A DNA stretch of 64,000 bases from Alphaproteobacteria bacterium LSUCC0396 (GTDB taxonomy: Bacteria; Pseudomonadota; Alphaproteobacteria; Puniceispirillales; Puniceispirillaceae). The notes beneath the pieces were generated by a model. The model saw only the letters and a list, made by a program, of their open reading frames with translations, searched no databases and was not told the origin of the DNA. Location: contig CP166131.1 of assembly GCA_041228345.1 (NCBI GenBank), positions 1,419,001 to 1,483,000 on the forward strand. The letters are read 5' to 3'. Within the stretch, counting starts at the first letter, position 1, and each line of letters starts with the position of its first letter. This document shows, piece by piece, positions 3,235 through 16,732 of the stretch. The position numbers were made by a program, and so were the translations under genes.

Positions 3235-5594
3235 CAAAAGCCACCATTTTCGTTGTCAGGCATCAGCACATCGCGTTTGCCAACATGATTTGCCGCCGAA
3301 ATAATGCCGTTACTCTCCATTTCTTCAATGATCGTCGCTGCCCGATTATAACCGATTTTCAAATGCCGTTGTACAAAACTGGTTGAGGCTTTCTGTTCCC
3401 GCACCACCAGTGCAACCGCCTGTTCATAAAGGCTGCCGCCCGTACCTGCGATAGCGGCATCGCCAGCCGCATCAACGCCATTCTCGGCATCTTCGACCAC
3501 GCGATCATCATATTCCGGCTCGCCCTGTTGACGCAGGAAATTGGCAACCGATTCAACCTCGCCATCCTCGACAAAGGGGCCATGCACACGCACAACGCGG
3601 CCGCCACCCTCCATAAACAGCATATCACCCCGACCCAGCAATTGTTCGGCGCCCTGTTCGCCAAGGATCGTCCGGCTGTCGATCCGTGATGTAACCTGAA
3701 AACTAATCCGTGTCGGAAAATTCGCCTTGATCGTGCCTGTGATGACATCAACAGAAGGGCGCTGTGTCGCCATGATAACATGGATACCCGCCGCCCGTGC
3801 CATTTGCGCAAGGCGCTGGACTGCACCTTCAATTTCCTTGCCGGCAACAAGCATCAGGTCGGCCACTTCGTCAATCAACACAACAATGAAAGGAAGAGGG
3901 GCAAGATCAAGAATTTCCTCTTCATGGATCGGTTTGCCGGTTTCAGGATCAAAGCCAGTTTGAACCCGCCTCGTTAGCACCTCACCCTTGGCTCTGGCCT
4001 CGGCCAGCCGGTCATTATAACCACCAATATTGCGCACACCCATTTTAGCCATATTGCGATAGCGGTTTTCCATTTCACGAACCGCCCATTTCAATGCCGT
4101 CACCGCCTTTGACGGGTCGGTCACAACCGGACTGAGCAGATGCGGAATACCGTCATAAACCGACAGTTCCAGCATTTTAGGATCAATCATAATCATGCGA
4201 CAGGTTTCAGGCGTATGGCGATATAGCAATGACAGGATCATTGCATTAATGCCGACAGATTTTCCCGATCCGGTGGTTCCCGCAACAAGCAAATGCGGGA
4301 ATTTTGCCAGATCGACCACCACCGGCGCACCGGCGATATCTTTGCCAAGCGCCATCGGCAGGCTTGATTGATCCTTGCCCCAGACATCATGGTCAAGGAT
4401 ATCGCGCAGCATCACCACTTGCCGATCCTCATTCGGCAATTCGATGCCGATCACATTTTGCCCGGGCACCACCGCCACACGGACTGAAATAGCGCTCATT
4501 GATCGCGCAATATCATCGGCAAGCGAGATCACTCGTTGTGATTTTGTGCCCGGCGCCGGATTCAGATCATAACGGGTTACAACTGGCCCATAACGCACAT
4601 CGGCAATAGTGCCATTCACGCTAAAATCGGATAATACATTTTCCAGCTGGCTTGCATGTTCCTGCAACGCTGCCTTGGACGGGCCAGATTGCGCTTTGGC
4701 GGGCGGATTTAACAGGCGGGCAGGCGGCAATTGGAACCCAGAACCACTGCCAAAATCCAGCATTTCTTGTTTGCTGTTCTTTTTGGCCGCGCGCGATGAG
4801 CGCGGCTTTAGGCTGGCAGCCTGATTTGCATTTTCGCCAGCAACAAGATCGGCCGCCTCGGCTACAAGCACTGGTTCCTGACGCTGTTTCGCGGCCTTTG
4901 GCTTTCGCACCGGTTTTGCCGCAACATTTCTTTGCAAATTTGCTAGGGTGCCTGCCAGCCGCTGGCAAATCCCAATAACCCCCTCGAACACACGACCGAT
5001 CCGGCTCGTCTGGCCGCCAAGCTGTAGCCATTGCTGGGGCGAAATTGCCGCCACCCATAACCATGCCAAGAAACCCAGAAACAGGGCAGCACCGCCAACA
5101 TAATGGATTGTCTGAAGCCCCAGAACTGATGGCATTGGCTGCATAACCCGCATAATCAGGCCAATGATTACCGCACCGGCCGCACCGCCATTATCACTGA
5201 CCCCGCCACCATCAAGGGCAAATATCCCGCCCGCAAGAAACACAAGGCTGATCGGCAATAGCGCGGTGCGAAACCGAAACAGCGGCACCGGCTGCTTGCG
5301 AAAATAAAACGAGCTCCAGCATAGGGGCACCAAAGCCAGAAAAAACGCCGCAAGTCCGATACCGGCATAAAGTCCCGCCGATACATTGGCACCAATCGGG
5401 CCAAGCCAGTTTTTTATTGGTGCGTTTGAAATTTGTGTAAATGATGGATCGTTCTTACCAGCAGTGACAAGCGCGATTAGCAGCAAGACGCCAATTAAAA
5501 ACAAGACAAGACCAAAGATTTCCATCAACCGATTTTGCAGAAACTGCATCATCGCATTGGAGAAAATAGGTTTCTTGTCGTCGCTACTAGCCAT
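3234..5594 (-). CDS. ftsK: FtsK/SpoIIIE DNA translocase
   Basis: Septum-anchored motor that pumps chromosome ends toward dif and activates XerCD. The 786 residues show hydrophobic segments over about 25-185 (membrane anchor), a short basic/Ala-rich linker, then the motor. Walker A GTTGSGKSVGIN is near 439 and Walker B FIVVLIDEVADLM near 570. The C-terminal winged-helix gamma domain (SFVQRHLKIGYNRAATIIEEME) reads polar DNA sequences. AAAGGAAAAC precedes the ATG as a good ribosome site. The stop overlaps lolA by one base, an arrangement common in alphaproteobacteria. Confidence 0.97.
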   Translation of the reverse strand: MASSDDKKPIFSNAMMQFLQNRLMEIFGLVLFLIGVLLLIALVTAGKNDPSFTQISNAPIKNWLGPIGANVSAGLYAGIGLAAFFLALVPLCWSSFYFRKQPVPLFRFRTALLPISLVFLAGGIFALDGGGVSDNGGAAGAVIIGLIMRVMQPMPSVLGLQTIHYVGGAALFLGFLAWLWVAAISPQQWLQLGGQTSRIGRVFEGVIGICQRLAGTLANLQRNVAAKPVRKPKAAKQRQEPVLVAEAADLVAGENANQAASLKPRSSRAAKKNSKQEMLDFGSGSGFQLPPARLLNPPAKAQSGPSKAALQEHASQLENVLSDFSVNGTIADVRYGPVVTRYDLNPAPGTKSQRVISLADDIARSMSAISVRVAVVPGQNVIGIELPNEDRQVVMLRDILDHDVWGKDQSSLPMALGKDIAGAPVVVDLAKFPHLLVAGTTGSGKSVGINAMILSLLYRHTPETCRMIMIDPKMLELSVYDGIPHLLSPVVTDPSKAVTALKWAVREMENRYRNMAKMGVRNIGGYNDRLAEARAKGEVLTRRVQTGFDPETGKPIHEEEILDLAPLPFIVVLIDEVADLMLVAGKEIEGAVQRLAQMARAAGIHVIMATQRPSVDVITGTIKANFPTRISFQVTSRIDSRTILGEQGAEQLLGRGDMLFMEGGGRVVRVHGPFVEDGEVESVANFLRQQGEPEYDDRVVEDAENGVDAAGDAAIAGTGGSLYEQAVALVVREQKASTSFVQRHLKIGYNRAATIIEEMESNGIISAANHVGKRDVLMPDNENGGF

Positions 5595-14401: not shown

Positions 14402-14579
14402 CACCATTGATGCTGTGGGCGGGCTGGAAACTTTTTGCCATCGCCTGATGAATGACTAAAAACCAGGAATATCGCTGTCTAATCAGGTAATTTGCCTCTT
14501 GCGCGCGAACGACGCTTGGATTATACCACATGCCAGCGGTTCGCATTAACCGCATCCCACCTGATCTGGTGGATGCGAC

Positions 14580-14654
14580 GCGGGTGTAGCTCAGTGGTAG
14601 AGCACAACCTTGCCAAGGTTGGGGTCGAGGGTTCGAATCCCTTCACCCGCTCCA
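14580..14654 (+). tRNA. glyT: tRNA-Gly (anticodon GCC)
   Basis: It folds as a full cloverleaf with acceptor GCGGGTG paired with CACCCGC, D arm GCTC...GAGC, anticodon stem CAACC/GGTTG with loop TTGCCAA (anticodon 14612-14614), and T arm GAGGG-TTCGAAT-CCCTT with one G.U pair. The CCA tail is encoded at 14652-14654. The 3' end (14639-14657) recurs inverted 800 bases downstream, and the region that follows is gene-poor and AT-richer, the usual look of a tRNA used as an integration site. Confidence 0.97.
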
Positions 14655-14657
14655 ATT
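14639..14657 (+). repeat. tRNA-Gly 3'-end copy A of a 19-bp inverted repeat
   Basis: CCCTTCACCCGCTCCAATT covers the T-stem 3' strand, the acceptor 3' strand, TCCA and three bases beyond the tRNA. Its exact reverse complement stands at 15456-15474. The length and position are like a tRNA attachment-site core, but the second copy is inverted rather than direct. Confidence 0.8.
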
Positions 14658-14851
14658 TTCTTAACAGAAGACATGTATCTCATTGATTTGTAGACATATT
14701 AATTGTTTGCAGGTGGTGAGTAATGTCCAAGGTGATGTACAAATTTGGTGCCAGTTACGTGTCATGTCGTGCCGGTGAATAATCCTCATTTGGATATTGG
14801 GAAGACTCCTACGCCATGAAACGCACTTCAAATTGACAGGTTACGTAAAAT

Positions 14852-15403
14852 ATGATCAGAAGAATCATGAAAAACATCGTATTCCTTATCGCATGTTTGT
14901 TATTTGTTTTGCCAGTTAGCGCTCAGGCTGACTGGAAAACACGCTACCCTGATCTTCAGGAAGTTGGGACTGGTGTCTTAAAAGTTTTCTTTATGGATAT
15001 CTACAGCCTAACCCTGCACTCTAAAGAGGGTGATTATCAAGTCAGTGACCATTTTGTGCTCGAATTTAACTACAAAAAATCGGTATCAAAAAAGACAATT
15101 ATCGACGCATCAATAGACGAGCTTTCCAAAGTGCCAAATGTTGATTCAGTTGAATTAAAGGCTTGGAAACAAATTTTAGAAAAAGGCATCAGCGACATGC
15201 AAGCTGGAGAAAAAGCCTCTGTGGTCTTTTCAAAGTCTGGGAATATCGAATTTTGGTCAAAAAATCGTGAACCCATTTCATTCCAAGACCTAAAATTTGC
15301 CAAGAATTTTGCAGCAATATGGCTTGGACCAAAAACATCTCATCCAAAGCTAAGACTAGCACTCTTGGGTATAAATTTACAGGACAACCAGCAAAAGAAC
15401 TGA
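14852..15403 (+). CDS. secreted chalcone-isomerase-like (Chalcone_3) protein
   Basis: Predicted exported protein of 183 residues. A signal peptide MKNIVFLIACLLFVLPVSAQA begins at the second ATG (14867), which may be the real start; neither start has a strong ribosome site. The mature part VGTGVLKVFFMDIYSLTLHSKEGDYQ, FVLEFNYKKSVSKKTIIDASIDEL and the tail KNFAAIWLGPKTSHPKLRLALLG match the bacterial chalcone-isomerase-like domain. In bacteria its role is unknown and probably not flavonoid chemistry. It is AT-richer and more lysine-rich than neighbouring genes and lies just downstream of tRNA-Gly, so transfer is plausible. Family assignment is from pattern memory. Confidence 0.7.
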   Translation: MIRRIMKNIVFLIACLLFVLPVSAQADWKTRYPDLQEVGTGVLKVFFMDIYSLTLHSKEGDYQVSDHFVLEFNYKKSVSKKTIIDASIDELSKVPNVDSVELKAWKQILEKGISDMQAGEKASVVFSKSGNIEFWSKNREPISFQDLKFAKNFAAIWLGPKTSHPKLRLALLGINLQDNQQKN

Positions 15404-15407
15404 GATC

Positions 15408-15759
15408 CAAGTAAACCGTCACTTGTATCTCGGTCCAAGGACCTTTGACGTTGAGAATTGGAGCGGGTGAAGGGTAGTTTGATGCCTATCCGATGCGCCA
15501 ATCTGTGACTGAATCTATTAATATCAATAGCTTAACAGATCTTCACGTATGGTCGACTATCAAAATCCTACCTGCAACCTTGTCTGAACCTAAGTTCCCA
15601 GTTTCACGAGCCAACTCTCTCCAACAAAGCGACTGCAACCTCCGCCCTCGGTCCTTGAACGGGTGTTACTGAGGGCATTTCTGGATCAGGTTTGGATTTG
15701 ATCATAGGGGTGGGGCCGCAGGAAGCAGGGGCTTGCGTCTCGGATCGACGGTTTACTTG
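15408..15759. repeat. 352-bp segment bounded by 13-bp inverted repeats
   Basis: CAAGTAAACCGTC at 15408-15420 and its exact reverse complement GACGGTTTACTTG at 15747-15759 frame a non-coding segment starting four bases after the chalcone-like gene stop. It carries the inverted tRNA-Gly fragment. It resembles a small non-autonomous element or a scar, but I see no target-site duplication (flanks GATC and ATTG), so mobility is unproven. Confidence 0.4.
15456..15474 (-). repeat. tRNA-Gly 3'-end copy B (inverted)
   Basis: AATTGGAGCGGGTGAAGGG is the exact reverse complement of 14639-14657. The match stops sharply on both sides, so it is a fragment, not a second tRNA gene. It may mark a past site-specific recombination at tRNA-Gly followed by an inversion. 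Confidence 0.7.
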
Positions 15760-15870
15760 ATTGGTTGGCGGAGGCGTTGGAGGGTGGGTTTGTCAAGGTT
15801 TCCAGCTTTTGCCACATTTCCCACAAATTGAGAACAAATAGCATGCATATAAATCCCTCAGTCAATTAAG
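15594..15870 (+). pseudogene. possible decayed coding remnant, unidentified
   Basis: One plus-strand frame reads VPSFTSQLSPTKRL... then SVLERVLLRAFLDQVWI, two stops within 9 bases, then RRKQGLASRIDGLLDWLAEALEGGFVKVSS before losing sense. The amphipathic LLRAFLDQVW and IDGLLDWLAEALEGGF stretches look protein-like, but I recognise no family. There is no start codon with a ribosome site. It may also be chance in a GC-rich patch. Confidence 0.2.
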
Positions 15871-15879
15871 GGTTATCAA

Positions 15880-16080
15880 ATGAAAAAGATATTTTTAGCA
15901 GCCACGCTCCTTTCTCTTGGAGGGTGTAATGCTGCTTACAATGAAGCGGTGAATCGGCAGTTGGCAGAAGGGTACAGGTGGGTTGAGATACCCTGTCGCC
16001 CTGCTAACCCTGATGTGCCAGCAATCACTATTGATGCCTCTAACGGACGTAAGTTAGTTTGCAACGTTCTGAGGAAGTAG
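15880..16080 (+). CDS. small predicted lipoprotein
   Basis: A 66-residue protein with a lipoprotein signal: MKKIFLAATLLSLGGC, lipobox LGGC with Cys16. The mature part is about 50 residues (NAAYNEAVNRQLAEGYRWVEIPCRPANPDVPAITIDASNGRKLVCNVLRK), contains two more cysteines that could form a disulphide, and has no family I recognise. AAGGG seven bases before the ATG is a good ribosome site, supporting a real gene despite its size. It stands alone in the patch downstream of tRNA-Gly. Confidence 0.65.
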   Translation: MKKIFLAATLLSLGGCNAAYNEAVNRQLAEGYRWVEIPCRPANPDVPAITIDASNGRKLVCNVLRK

Positions 16081-16141
16081 GAGCCATGCTGTCATCTATT
16101 TTGTTCTGCGGTTGGGATAAAGGTGGGCCCATATCTGGGGG

Positions 16142-16732
16142 CTAGCGCAGCAGCGACCAGACCGACAGGATAACAACGGCAAGGAGACAAGCTGCCATTC
16201 CAAAATTTATTGCGCGCTGGGTGCGCGGCGCCAGTTCCAGGCGGTTAATTTTGACCCCTGCATAGAGCCACAGACAATGCAGCAGTAACCAGATTACATT
16301 GGCAATCAACAGCTTTAATCCAGTTTCAATAAAAAGGCTTTCCGGATAAAACGCAAAACCACTAAACAGCGTGGTGTTAACTGCATAGGCTTTTGGGTTG
16401 ATAAACTGAAGTGTCAATCCCGCCATCAAACCGGGTGTCGACATTGAAATGAAGGCGATTTTGGCACCGGCAAAGGCAATTCTGAAAGCAAGATAAGCAA
16501 GATACGCCGCTGAGACAGCCAGCAGAATCGTTCGGACTATTGGATCTGCTAGCACAATTGCGGCAAGACCGGAAATAACCGCAAGGCAAACGATATTCGT
16601 GCCGATGAACAAACCGGCTAGATATTGTATGCCTTGGCGCCACCCAAACGCGGCACCAACACCAGCCAATGACAAGACGCCCGGCCCAGGTGTGATAATC
16701 AGCAGAAAAACAGCCAGCGCGAATGTGAGCAT
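16142..16732 (-). CDS. LysE/RhtB-family amino-acid exporter
   Basis: Inner-membrane efflux protein of 196 residues with about six hydrophobic segments. The N-terminal LLIITPGPGVLSLAGVGAAFGWRQGIQYLAGLFIGTN is the LysE/RhtB signature, including the PGPG motif, and INPKAYAVNTTLFSGF is the conserved middle loop. Members export lysine, threonine, homoserine or other small amines; the substrate here is unknown. The ATG at 16732 opens directly into the first membrane helix. It lies 42 bases downstream of the MFS gene, so both may be in one minus-strand unit with the hydrolase. Confidence 0.88.
   Translation of the reverse strand: MLTFALAVFLLIITPGPGVLSLAGVGAAFGWRQGIQYLAGLFIGTNIVCLAVISGLAAIVLADPIVRTILLAVSAAYLAYLAFRIAFAGAKIAFISMSTPGLMAGLTLQFINPKAYAVNTTLFSGFAFYPESLFIETGLKLLIANVIWLLLHCLWLYAGVKINRLELAPRTQRAINFGMAACLLAVVILSVWSLLR

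Follow-up and report, generated by a model that had tools for sequence, protein, structure and literature searches.

The tRNA-Gly locus

The stretch of DNA analysed here, 64 kb in length and referred to below as the window, contains a tRNA-Gly(GCC) gene whose 3′ end is found again, in inverted orientation, further downstream (Table 1). The repeated 19-mer, CCCTTCACCCGCTCCAATT, spans the last 16 bases of the tRNA, and its second occurrence is an exact reverse complement of the first. These are the only two matches across the window when up to two mismatches are allowed, and a chance origin of the pair is ruled out by 100 dinucleotide shuffles of the window, in which 0 matches to it were found. 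The inverted copy described in an earlier note on this DNA is therefore real and exact. With 95% complementarity the pair stretches to 22 nt (14639-14660 and 15453-15474). An RNA gene at the inverted site was considered and rejected, as a search of Rfam at E values up to 1 returned nothing besides the tRNA itself and one weak match lying over it.

Measured in steps of 500 bases, the GC content falls to 0.450 and then 0.406 over 14500-15499, compared with 0.498-0.538 in the three preceding steps. The lower-GC gene for a secreted protein that had been noted between the two copies is recognizable as the Chalcone_3 open reading frame, the N terminus of which resembles, by eye only, a signal peptide.

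Table 1. Features of the tRNA-Gly(GCC) locus and the DNA inserted next to it (positions within the window).
Position	Strand	Feature	Basis or remark
14580-14654	+	tRNA-Gly(GCC), target gene	ARAGORN; Rfam RF00005, 73.9 bits
14639-14657	+	tRNA 3′ end, recombination core of attL	core equivalents in complete elements
14658-14722	+	right arm (A) of second element subtype, runs to integrase start	
14723-14782	+	integrase stub, 18 codons MSKVMYKFGASYVSCRAG, within a 20-codon ORF	
14776-14851	+	sequence matching G004:C78 and G008:C44 from the stop codon of type-1 integrase relics	
14852-15403	+	Chalcone_3 (PF16036) gene	E 4.5e-9
15409-15420		AAGTAAACCGTC, candidate arm-type site	by eye; inverted partner 15747-15758
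15413-15455	-	inverted A arm of internal site (attX)	alignment
15456-15474	-	core of inverted attP (attX), the inverted tRNA-Gly 3′ end	
15475-15764	+	B arm of attX	conserved over ~300 model positions
15747-15758		GACGGTTTACTT, candidate arm-type site	by eye; inverted partner 15409-15420
15880-16080	+	66-aa lipoprotein-like ORF, second cargo piece	
16139-16146		right edge of insert	chromosome resumes

Remains of an integrative element

The surroundings of the tRNA were compared with those in related bacteria by a search of 41 genomes and local alignment. Sequence resembling the A arm that follows the core is also found 3′ of tRNA-Gly(GCC) in four of them (G001, G004, G005, and G013). Integrase relics lie directly 3′ of the same tRNA in G004, which belongs to the same genus as the window genome, and in G013, and intact integrases do so elsewhere, for example in G002 (L054). 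The relic in the window is a stub; after 18 codons its frame passes into sequence like that at the 3′ end of a different integrase gene, where it meets a stop. Alone, these 18 residues match weakly (E 0.49) and are too short to be identified. Their identification comes via the longer relic of G013 (36 aa), which they match and which in turn resembles integrase N termini, the best hit being integrase L179 with 61% identity over 23 residues (E 1.3e-7); relic frames starting at the same place run for 36 residues in G013 and 27 in G004. At 14776 the window switches to sequence that in G004 and G008 starts at the stop codon of an integrase, ahead of the Chalcone_3 DNA; on the simplest reading, the gene was probably lost when a deletion joined one integrase gene to a related one. 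The earlier statement that the window has no integrase thus stands for an intact gene and fails for relics, since the 20-codon ORF starts as integrase relics do; the search for a relic that the same note had proposed ends at this stub.

The remainder of the insert is made up of sequences that have relatives at other tRNA genes. DNA homologous to the Chalcone_3 gene sits between the integrase and the inverted site in G004:C78 and G008:C44, and the segments 14776-15763 (in G008) and 14776-15590 (in G004) are found at another tRNA locus, near tRNA-Gly(TCC) in both. An arm similar to the inverted A arm occurs at attL of relatives, 3′ of tRNA-Arg, tRNA-Gly(TCC), and tRNA-Gly(GCC). The B arm is multi-copy in the window genome and its relatives, pieces of 15413-15793 are repeated, and DNA related to 15799-16088 occurs elsewhere in the genus. 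Assigning AAGTAAACCGTC and GACGGTTTACTT as arm-type sites is a guess from their position.

Past the insert, the first chromosomal gene is of the LysE type (16142-16732, minus strand). The empty version of the locus that the earlier note suggested looking for exists in G008, where 53 bp separate the left flank, which can be followed as far as 14661, from the right flank, which is recognizable from 16139 onward. This empty site, together with the integrases that follow the same tRNA elsewhere, supports the earlier suggestion of a tRNA integration site occupied by foreign DNA. No second, directly oriented copy of the tRNA 3′ end that could serve as attR is present in the 64 kb (up to two mismatches), and for this reason the locus was classed as a decayed remnant and not as an intact member. 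Judged by its sequence, then, the insert is what remains of an integrative element whose family targets tRNA genes.

Layout of complete members

In complete elements the order is tRNA, core-A, integrase gene (int), rc(A)-rc(core)-B, cargo, rc(B)-core, and chromosome, where rc denotes the reverse complement. Read backwards, the internal site attX is rc(B)-core-A, that is, the left arm of attR, the tRNA 3′ end, and the right arm of attL. As it joins these three, attX is the junction expected from excision, and an excised circle would therefore carry two near-identical, opposed attP sites. The inverted tRNA-Gly fragment of the window is almost certainly the core of such an inverted, complete attP and hence a regular part of the element.

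The distal end, rc(B)-core-chromosome, was located at tRNA-Gly(TCC) in G000, tRNA-Arg in G019, and tRNA-Asn in G015 and G025. In three of these four elements at least the last 14 tRNA bases are identical at all three sites. The exception is the element of G000, the window genome (L212, G000:C1:420500-440499, attX near 4302), in which the host gene is tRNA-Gly(TCC), the attX core is of the tRNA-Arg(ACG) type, and the A repeat is just 82% identical; the differing core is possibly the fossil of a target switch. In an alignment of the repeated piece, the letters of the inverted core follow the target, be it tRNA-Gly(GCC), tRNA-Gly(TCC), tRNA-Arg(ACG), or others.

Both arms were then scored in 21 stretches (10 of 15 newly fetched and 11 earlier ones; four had no scored integrase). 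They yielded 23 plus-strand integrase matches, one being a cut-off repeat of another, with three integrase fragments of fewer than 600 bases left unscored. An inverted A arm accompanies 19 of the matches, and 12 of these 19 elements also have the B inverted repeat inside the stretch. In these 12, the B repeats measure 197-1,148 bp at 98.1-100% identity and the A repeats 41-97 bp at 82-100%, and in all but one element (11/12) the two share an overlap of 14-25 nt, located at the tRNA core. The span from A repeat to B repeat is 4.3-15.8 kb, with a median of 11.6 kb.

The window genome yielded 10 DUF6538 integrases, eight of them with an inverted arm. The exceptions are an integrase at ~550 kb, with no inverted arm in its stretch, and one at ~562 kb, with just a weak 29-nt match 8 kb on. 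At 543.9-562.1 kb of G000:C1 (L215, L303), four DUF6538 integrases lie on one strand and point away from tRNA-Leu(GAG); elements are thus stacked in tandem at a single tRNA gene.

The layout can be followed in a closed replicon, the megaplasmid of Ruegeria sp. TM1040 (NC_008043.1), where a DUF6538 integrase is found at tRNA-Phe, with inverted repeats of 85 and 1,148 bp, both 100% identical, and a type I restriction system between the inverted repeats. Within the 1,148-bp repeat a BRO-family gene is duplicated (L331 21487-22062 and 31831-32406; two annotations, one accession). Three draft genomes fit the same scheme. An exact repeat in Tranquillimonas rosea, 3,082 bp long, runs from the core to the ends of two contigs, one with attX and one with an attR-like site, and Ruegeria faecimaris and Maritalea mobilis each have two contigs ending at the same base within B; as the contigs are unlinked, we infer the inverted layout in these three.

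In G019 another tyrosine integrase (L213 14448-15428; Phage_integrase plus a weak Int_N match) comes directly after the first element's attR, and pieces 91-94% identical to it lie beyond an attX in G004 (L216 13864-14802). In L144 and L159 a direct copy of 66-77 nt of tRNA-Arg precedes the DUF6538 integrase and the full tRNA-Arg is 2-6 kb upstream, as if another element had earlier inserted into the same tRNA.

Distribution of the inverted site

A wider survey was based on an alignment of six integrases, three of which were scanned, all three having DUF6538 and Phage_integrase domains; as a recombinase the integrase is of this DUF6538/Phage_integrase type and scores under the XerC and XerD cut-offs. 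The survey comprised 81 loci, 79 in named genomes (from the best 80 of 253) and two on viral contigs, and they are not independent, several being near-identical or from one genome. Many loci with a tRNA before int carry downstream an exact inverted copy of the tRNA end, up to 31 nt long; reversed-sequence controls gave no copy of at least 12 nt. An inverted copy of the region preceding int was found after int (E up to 1e-4) in 46 of the 66 loci whose sequence was long enough to be testable and was absent from 20; among testable loci with a tRNA, 37 of 49 were positive. The median identity of the 46 copies is 96.9% (17 are at 100%) and their median length is 86 bp. The limits of the survey left 15 of the 81 loci untestable, four of which (L142, L172, L200, and L209) display an inverted core.

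In most loci the match extends from a point shortly before int back into the tRNA, taking in its last 13-16 bases, and arm B follows the inverted core. The inverted copy starts within ~60 bp of the nominal int end in 17 of the 46 positives, and in the other 29 there is 0.3-6.3 kb of extra DNA in between. Three loci (L135, L149, and L205) have an additional copy of the inverted site in the same orientation. The 20 negatives are mostly scattered tips of the tree, among the positives; L180 has no inverted copy but a direct one of the ordinary kind, 30 nt long and 10 kb further along, and in L206 the core is directly oriented, just 3′ of int. In 17 of the 46 positives (L163, L166, L171, L175, L192, L195, L203, and others) the contig breaks off no more than 350 bp from the inverted copy, as is to be expected of a perfect repeat, and such breaks may conceal the far ends of islands.

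Two control sets behaved differently. Integrases of the P4 type (PF13356) beside a tRNA gave an inverted copy in 0 of 15 loci and a direct copy in one (L259). These were 15 of the 17 tRNA-bearing loci among 30 fetched, those left out having a doubtful tRNA-SeC call or a tRNA ~0.6 kb away; a hairpin beside the tRNA in L262 is not a copy. DUF6538 integrases of other clades gave an inverted copy in 0 of 9 loci and a direct copy kilobases downstream in 6 of 9. They were drawn from 10 of 29 loci outside the window genome that were fetched at length, the tenth (L305) being of the positive type. In a protein tree these nine are separated from 79 members of the element clade by a supported branch (99/100), in a tree whose long branches leave the deeper order unsure.

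Sequence comparison thus places the elements next to many tRNA genes in SAR116, Rhodobacterales (roseobacters), and Hyphomicrobiales (Rhizobiales), within one clade of DUF6538 tyrosine integrases. A phage origin was rejected, as just two phage records were found at E up to 1e-20, with 32% identity. One plasmid record, that of TM1040, was found at E up to 1e-30, and a prefix-suffix test for circular contigs at 16 loci found none.

Orientation of the integrase

Of the 81 loci, 57 have a tRNA whose end lies no more than 400 bp before int, one (L155) has a tRNA after int, and 23 show neither, although short contigs 3′ of int limit the detection of a tRNA on that side. The binomial probability of 57 versus 1 is 4e-16 on the assumption of independent loci, which these are not. 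L155 was considered as a clean flipped element and set aside, as its core is beside the 3′-side tRNA and the A arm does not adjoin there. This ratio disfavors an invertible int module.

The bias bears on how the two sites might be used. A double-stranded circle with two identical attP sites would be expected to give both int orientations equally, whereas a folded single-stranded substrate would be strand-specific and give one orientation, which fits the bias observed.

A possible role for the second site

In the model that we tentatively favor, integration would proceed from a single-stranded circle via the paired inverted attP sites. The single-stranded form of the element would be the integration substrate, and its two inverted attP copies, with arms of ~0.25 to >1 kb, would pair along both arms to form one double-stranded attP. 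Int would swap one strand with the tRNA gene, and replication would complete the second strand. One attP would thereby give rise to attL and attR, and the other would be left inverted, with the int start next to the tRNA. Such folding is favored by the nearly fixed orientation of int and by the precedent of the CTX phage of Vibrio cholerae, whose inverted attP1 and attP2 fold together in single-stranded DNA for integration (PMC4246890). Against it, both attP copies look intact, so that they could be used in double-stranded form; arms of at least 1 kb with a gene (BRO in TM1040) exceed the needs of an attP; and about one-third of testable loci (20/66) have no inverted site, with L180 looking like an ordinary direct-repeat element. 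The orientation bias could also result from selection for read-through from the tRNA. On balance, the folding step is plausible at slightly under even chances, and the anatomy and the single-strand mechanism taken together could as easily be wrong as right.

Gene content offers a further point in favor. Primase or primase-helicase genes lie near attX in three members (L181, L213, and L218), and some members may therefore replicate. Against this, among 118 loci searched with three primases, matches occurred in just eight distinct places, and no relaxase was found in the 16 proteins scanned. The primase matches, being few and pointing both ways, were not used as evidence from cargo orientation.

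Other readings of the second site have to be set against folding. The simplest, that an ordinary direct repeat was reversed by a chance inversion at the window locus, would account for inverted copies flanking lower-GC DNA with a foreign gene, but the same arrangement with complete arms recurs at many tRNAs in many genera, and this reading is barely credible. The earlier note's proposal of recombination followed by inversion at this locus is not supported in view of the same recurrence, the inverted copy being a built-in part of the element. That note had also set conservation of the fragment in distant relatives, with unvarying gene content between the copies, against its own reading; the arrangement is indeed conserved in distant relatives, but the tRNA, the location, and the cargo vary. 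An integron-like cassette array was likewise dropped, since the cores are tRNA 3′ ends with attP arms. An unlikely but more substantial alternative is that the inverted sites serve inversion, leading to double rolling-circle replication and amplification of the element, as FLP/FRT do in yeast. The circle would indeed have the layout of the 2-micron plasmid, with near-perfect inverted repeats, each bearing a recombination site, that split the int segment from the rest, and the identity of the arms within an element, as against their divergence between elements, suggests continual homogenization. Int-pTN3, a tRNA-type integrase, can invert DNA between opposed att sites in vitro (PMC5495485). Amplification of this kind accounts better than folding for long homogenized repeats but worse for orientation: frequent inversion would scramble int relative to the tRNA, and the two orientations of the inter-site segment that an FLP-like system would show were not found among the surveyed loci (57 versus 1). 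Moreover, attP × attP is not known as a normal reaction of lambda-type integrases, which counts against amplification by inversion.

Two further explanations leave the second site a humbler part. Two attP sites might simply offer a double-stranded circle two chances to integrate, or might be a passive duplication homogenized by host recombination. Both copies look intact, and the tRNA-Arg-type attX core of G000 looks as if a second site had kept an alternative target; yet identical sites in equal use would produce both orientations, which are not seen, and passive duplication fails to explain why the site occurs throughout one integrase clade yet is missing from the control sets. We regard this pair of possibilities as rather improbable. 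Somewhat less probable again is that the inverted attP has a regulatory or decoy function and is not a recombination substrate, acting in Int binding, in control of int expression, or as antisense of the tRNA end within the 3′ region of the int mRNA. The short distance (up to ~60 bp) from the int end to attX in 17 of the 46 positives would suit such a role, as read-through int mRNA would hold the complement of the tRNA 3′ end, but both arms are retained beyond the core, up to 1,148 bp at 100%, and in the remaining 29 positives the copy lies far from int. Folding of single-stranded attP is retained as the working model.

Relation to known systems

The element type itself, an integrative element that targets tRNA genes, is known. 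The tyrosine integrase beside a tRNA by which genomic islands are recognized is intact in relatives and reduced to the 18-codon stub in the window. Islander-type tRNA islands (PMC4383910) resemble this family in having int beside the tRNA, a core that restores the tRNA 3′ end, and a distal direct copy; our elements differ in carrying, inside the integrated form, a second complete, inverted attP, which none of the 15 P4-type controls has. Tycheposons are similar in occurring in aquatic bacteria, with a tyrosine recombinase at a tRNA and metabolic cargo, and a tyrosine recombinase at a tRNA with cargo, by which they are defined, is found here too; no inverted second attP is mentioned for them in the passages of PMC10872708 considered here, and overlap is possible.

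With CTX phage the family shares two inverted attP sites in one molecule that are able to pair when single-stranded. The phage relies on host XerCD and dif, and its attP copies are 90 bp apart and each unusable alone (PMC4246890), whereas members of this family have their own integrase, target tRNA genes, and keep the copies at least one integrase gene apart. Use of XerCD and dif was not found, and the likeness is one of working principle only.

A recombinase gene next to inverted repeats is part of the layout of the yeast 2-micron plasmid. Our elements share with its FLP/FRT system a recombinase gene beside site-bearing inverted repeats (PMC5495485; see also PMC3147054 and PMC7710549), but they differ in being located in a replicon at a tRNA, with int in nearly fixed orientation. 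Strand-biased circularizing integrative elements likewise use a tyrosine recombinase, and a single-stranded intermediate has been considered for them, the authors concluding in favor of a double-stranded one; they differ in having two integrases and imperfect terminal repeats of 13-19 bp, and tRNA goes unmentioned in that text (PMC10214605).

Concluding remarks

In the usual description, an integrated island has direct repeats at its borders and no attP left over. Among the open-access literature matches listed, none describes a tRNA island with a second attP in inverted orientation, overlap with tycheposons being possible; the listed matches for attP and DUF6538 concern fly and mosquito or other attP-tool genetics, none with DUF6538. 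That the second attP is near-identical and inverted across one clade argues that these elements do something extra with it. In practical terms, an inverted tRNA 3′ end after int provides a signature by which such islands can be found.

The fullest version of our proposal is of widespread islands that encode their own integrase and insert into tRNA genes from a single-stranded circle via a folded attP, which would fix their orientation; it has, in our estimation, rather less than an even chance of being correct. If folding is true, a route like that of the CTX phage would exist outside Xer/dif phages and integrons. Integration of single strands would link the islands of abundant ocean bacteria (SAR116 and roseobacters) to the pathways by which phages and integrons integrate as single strands, and would suggest that their cargo can arrive as single-stranded DNA.
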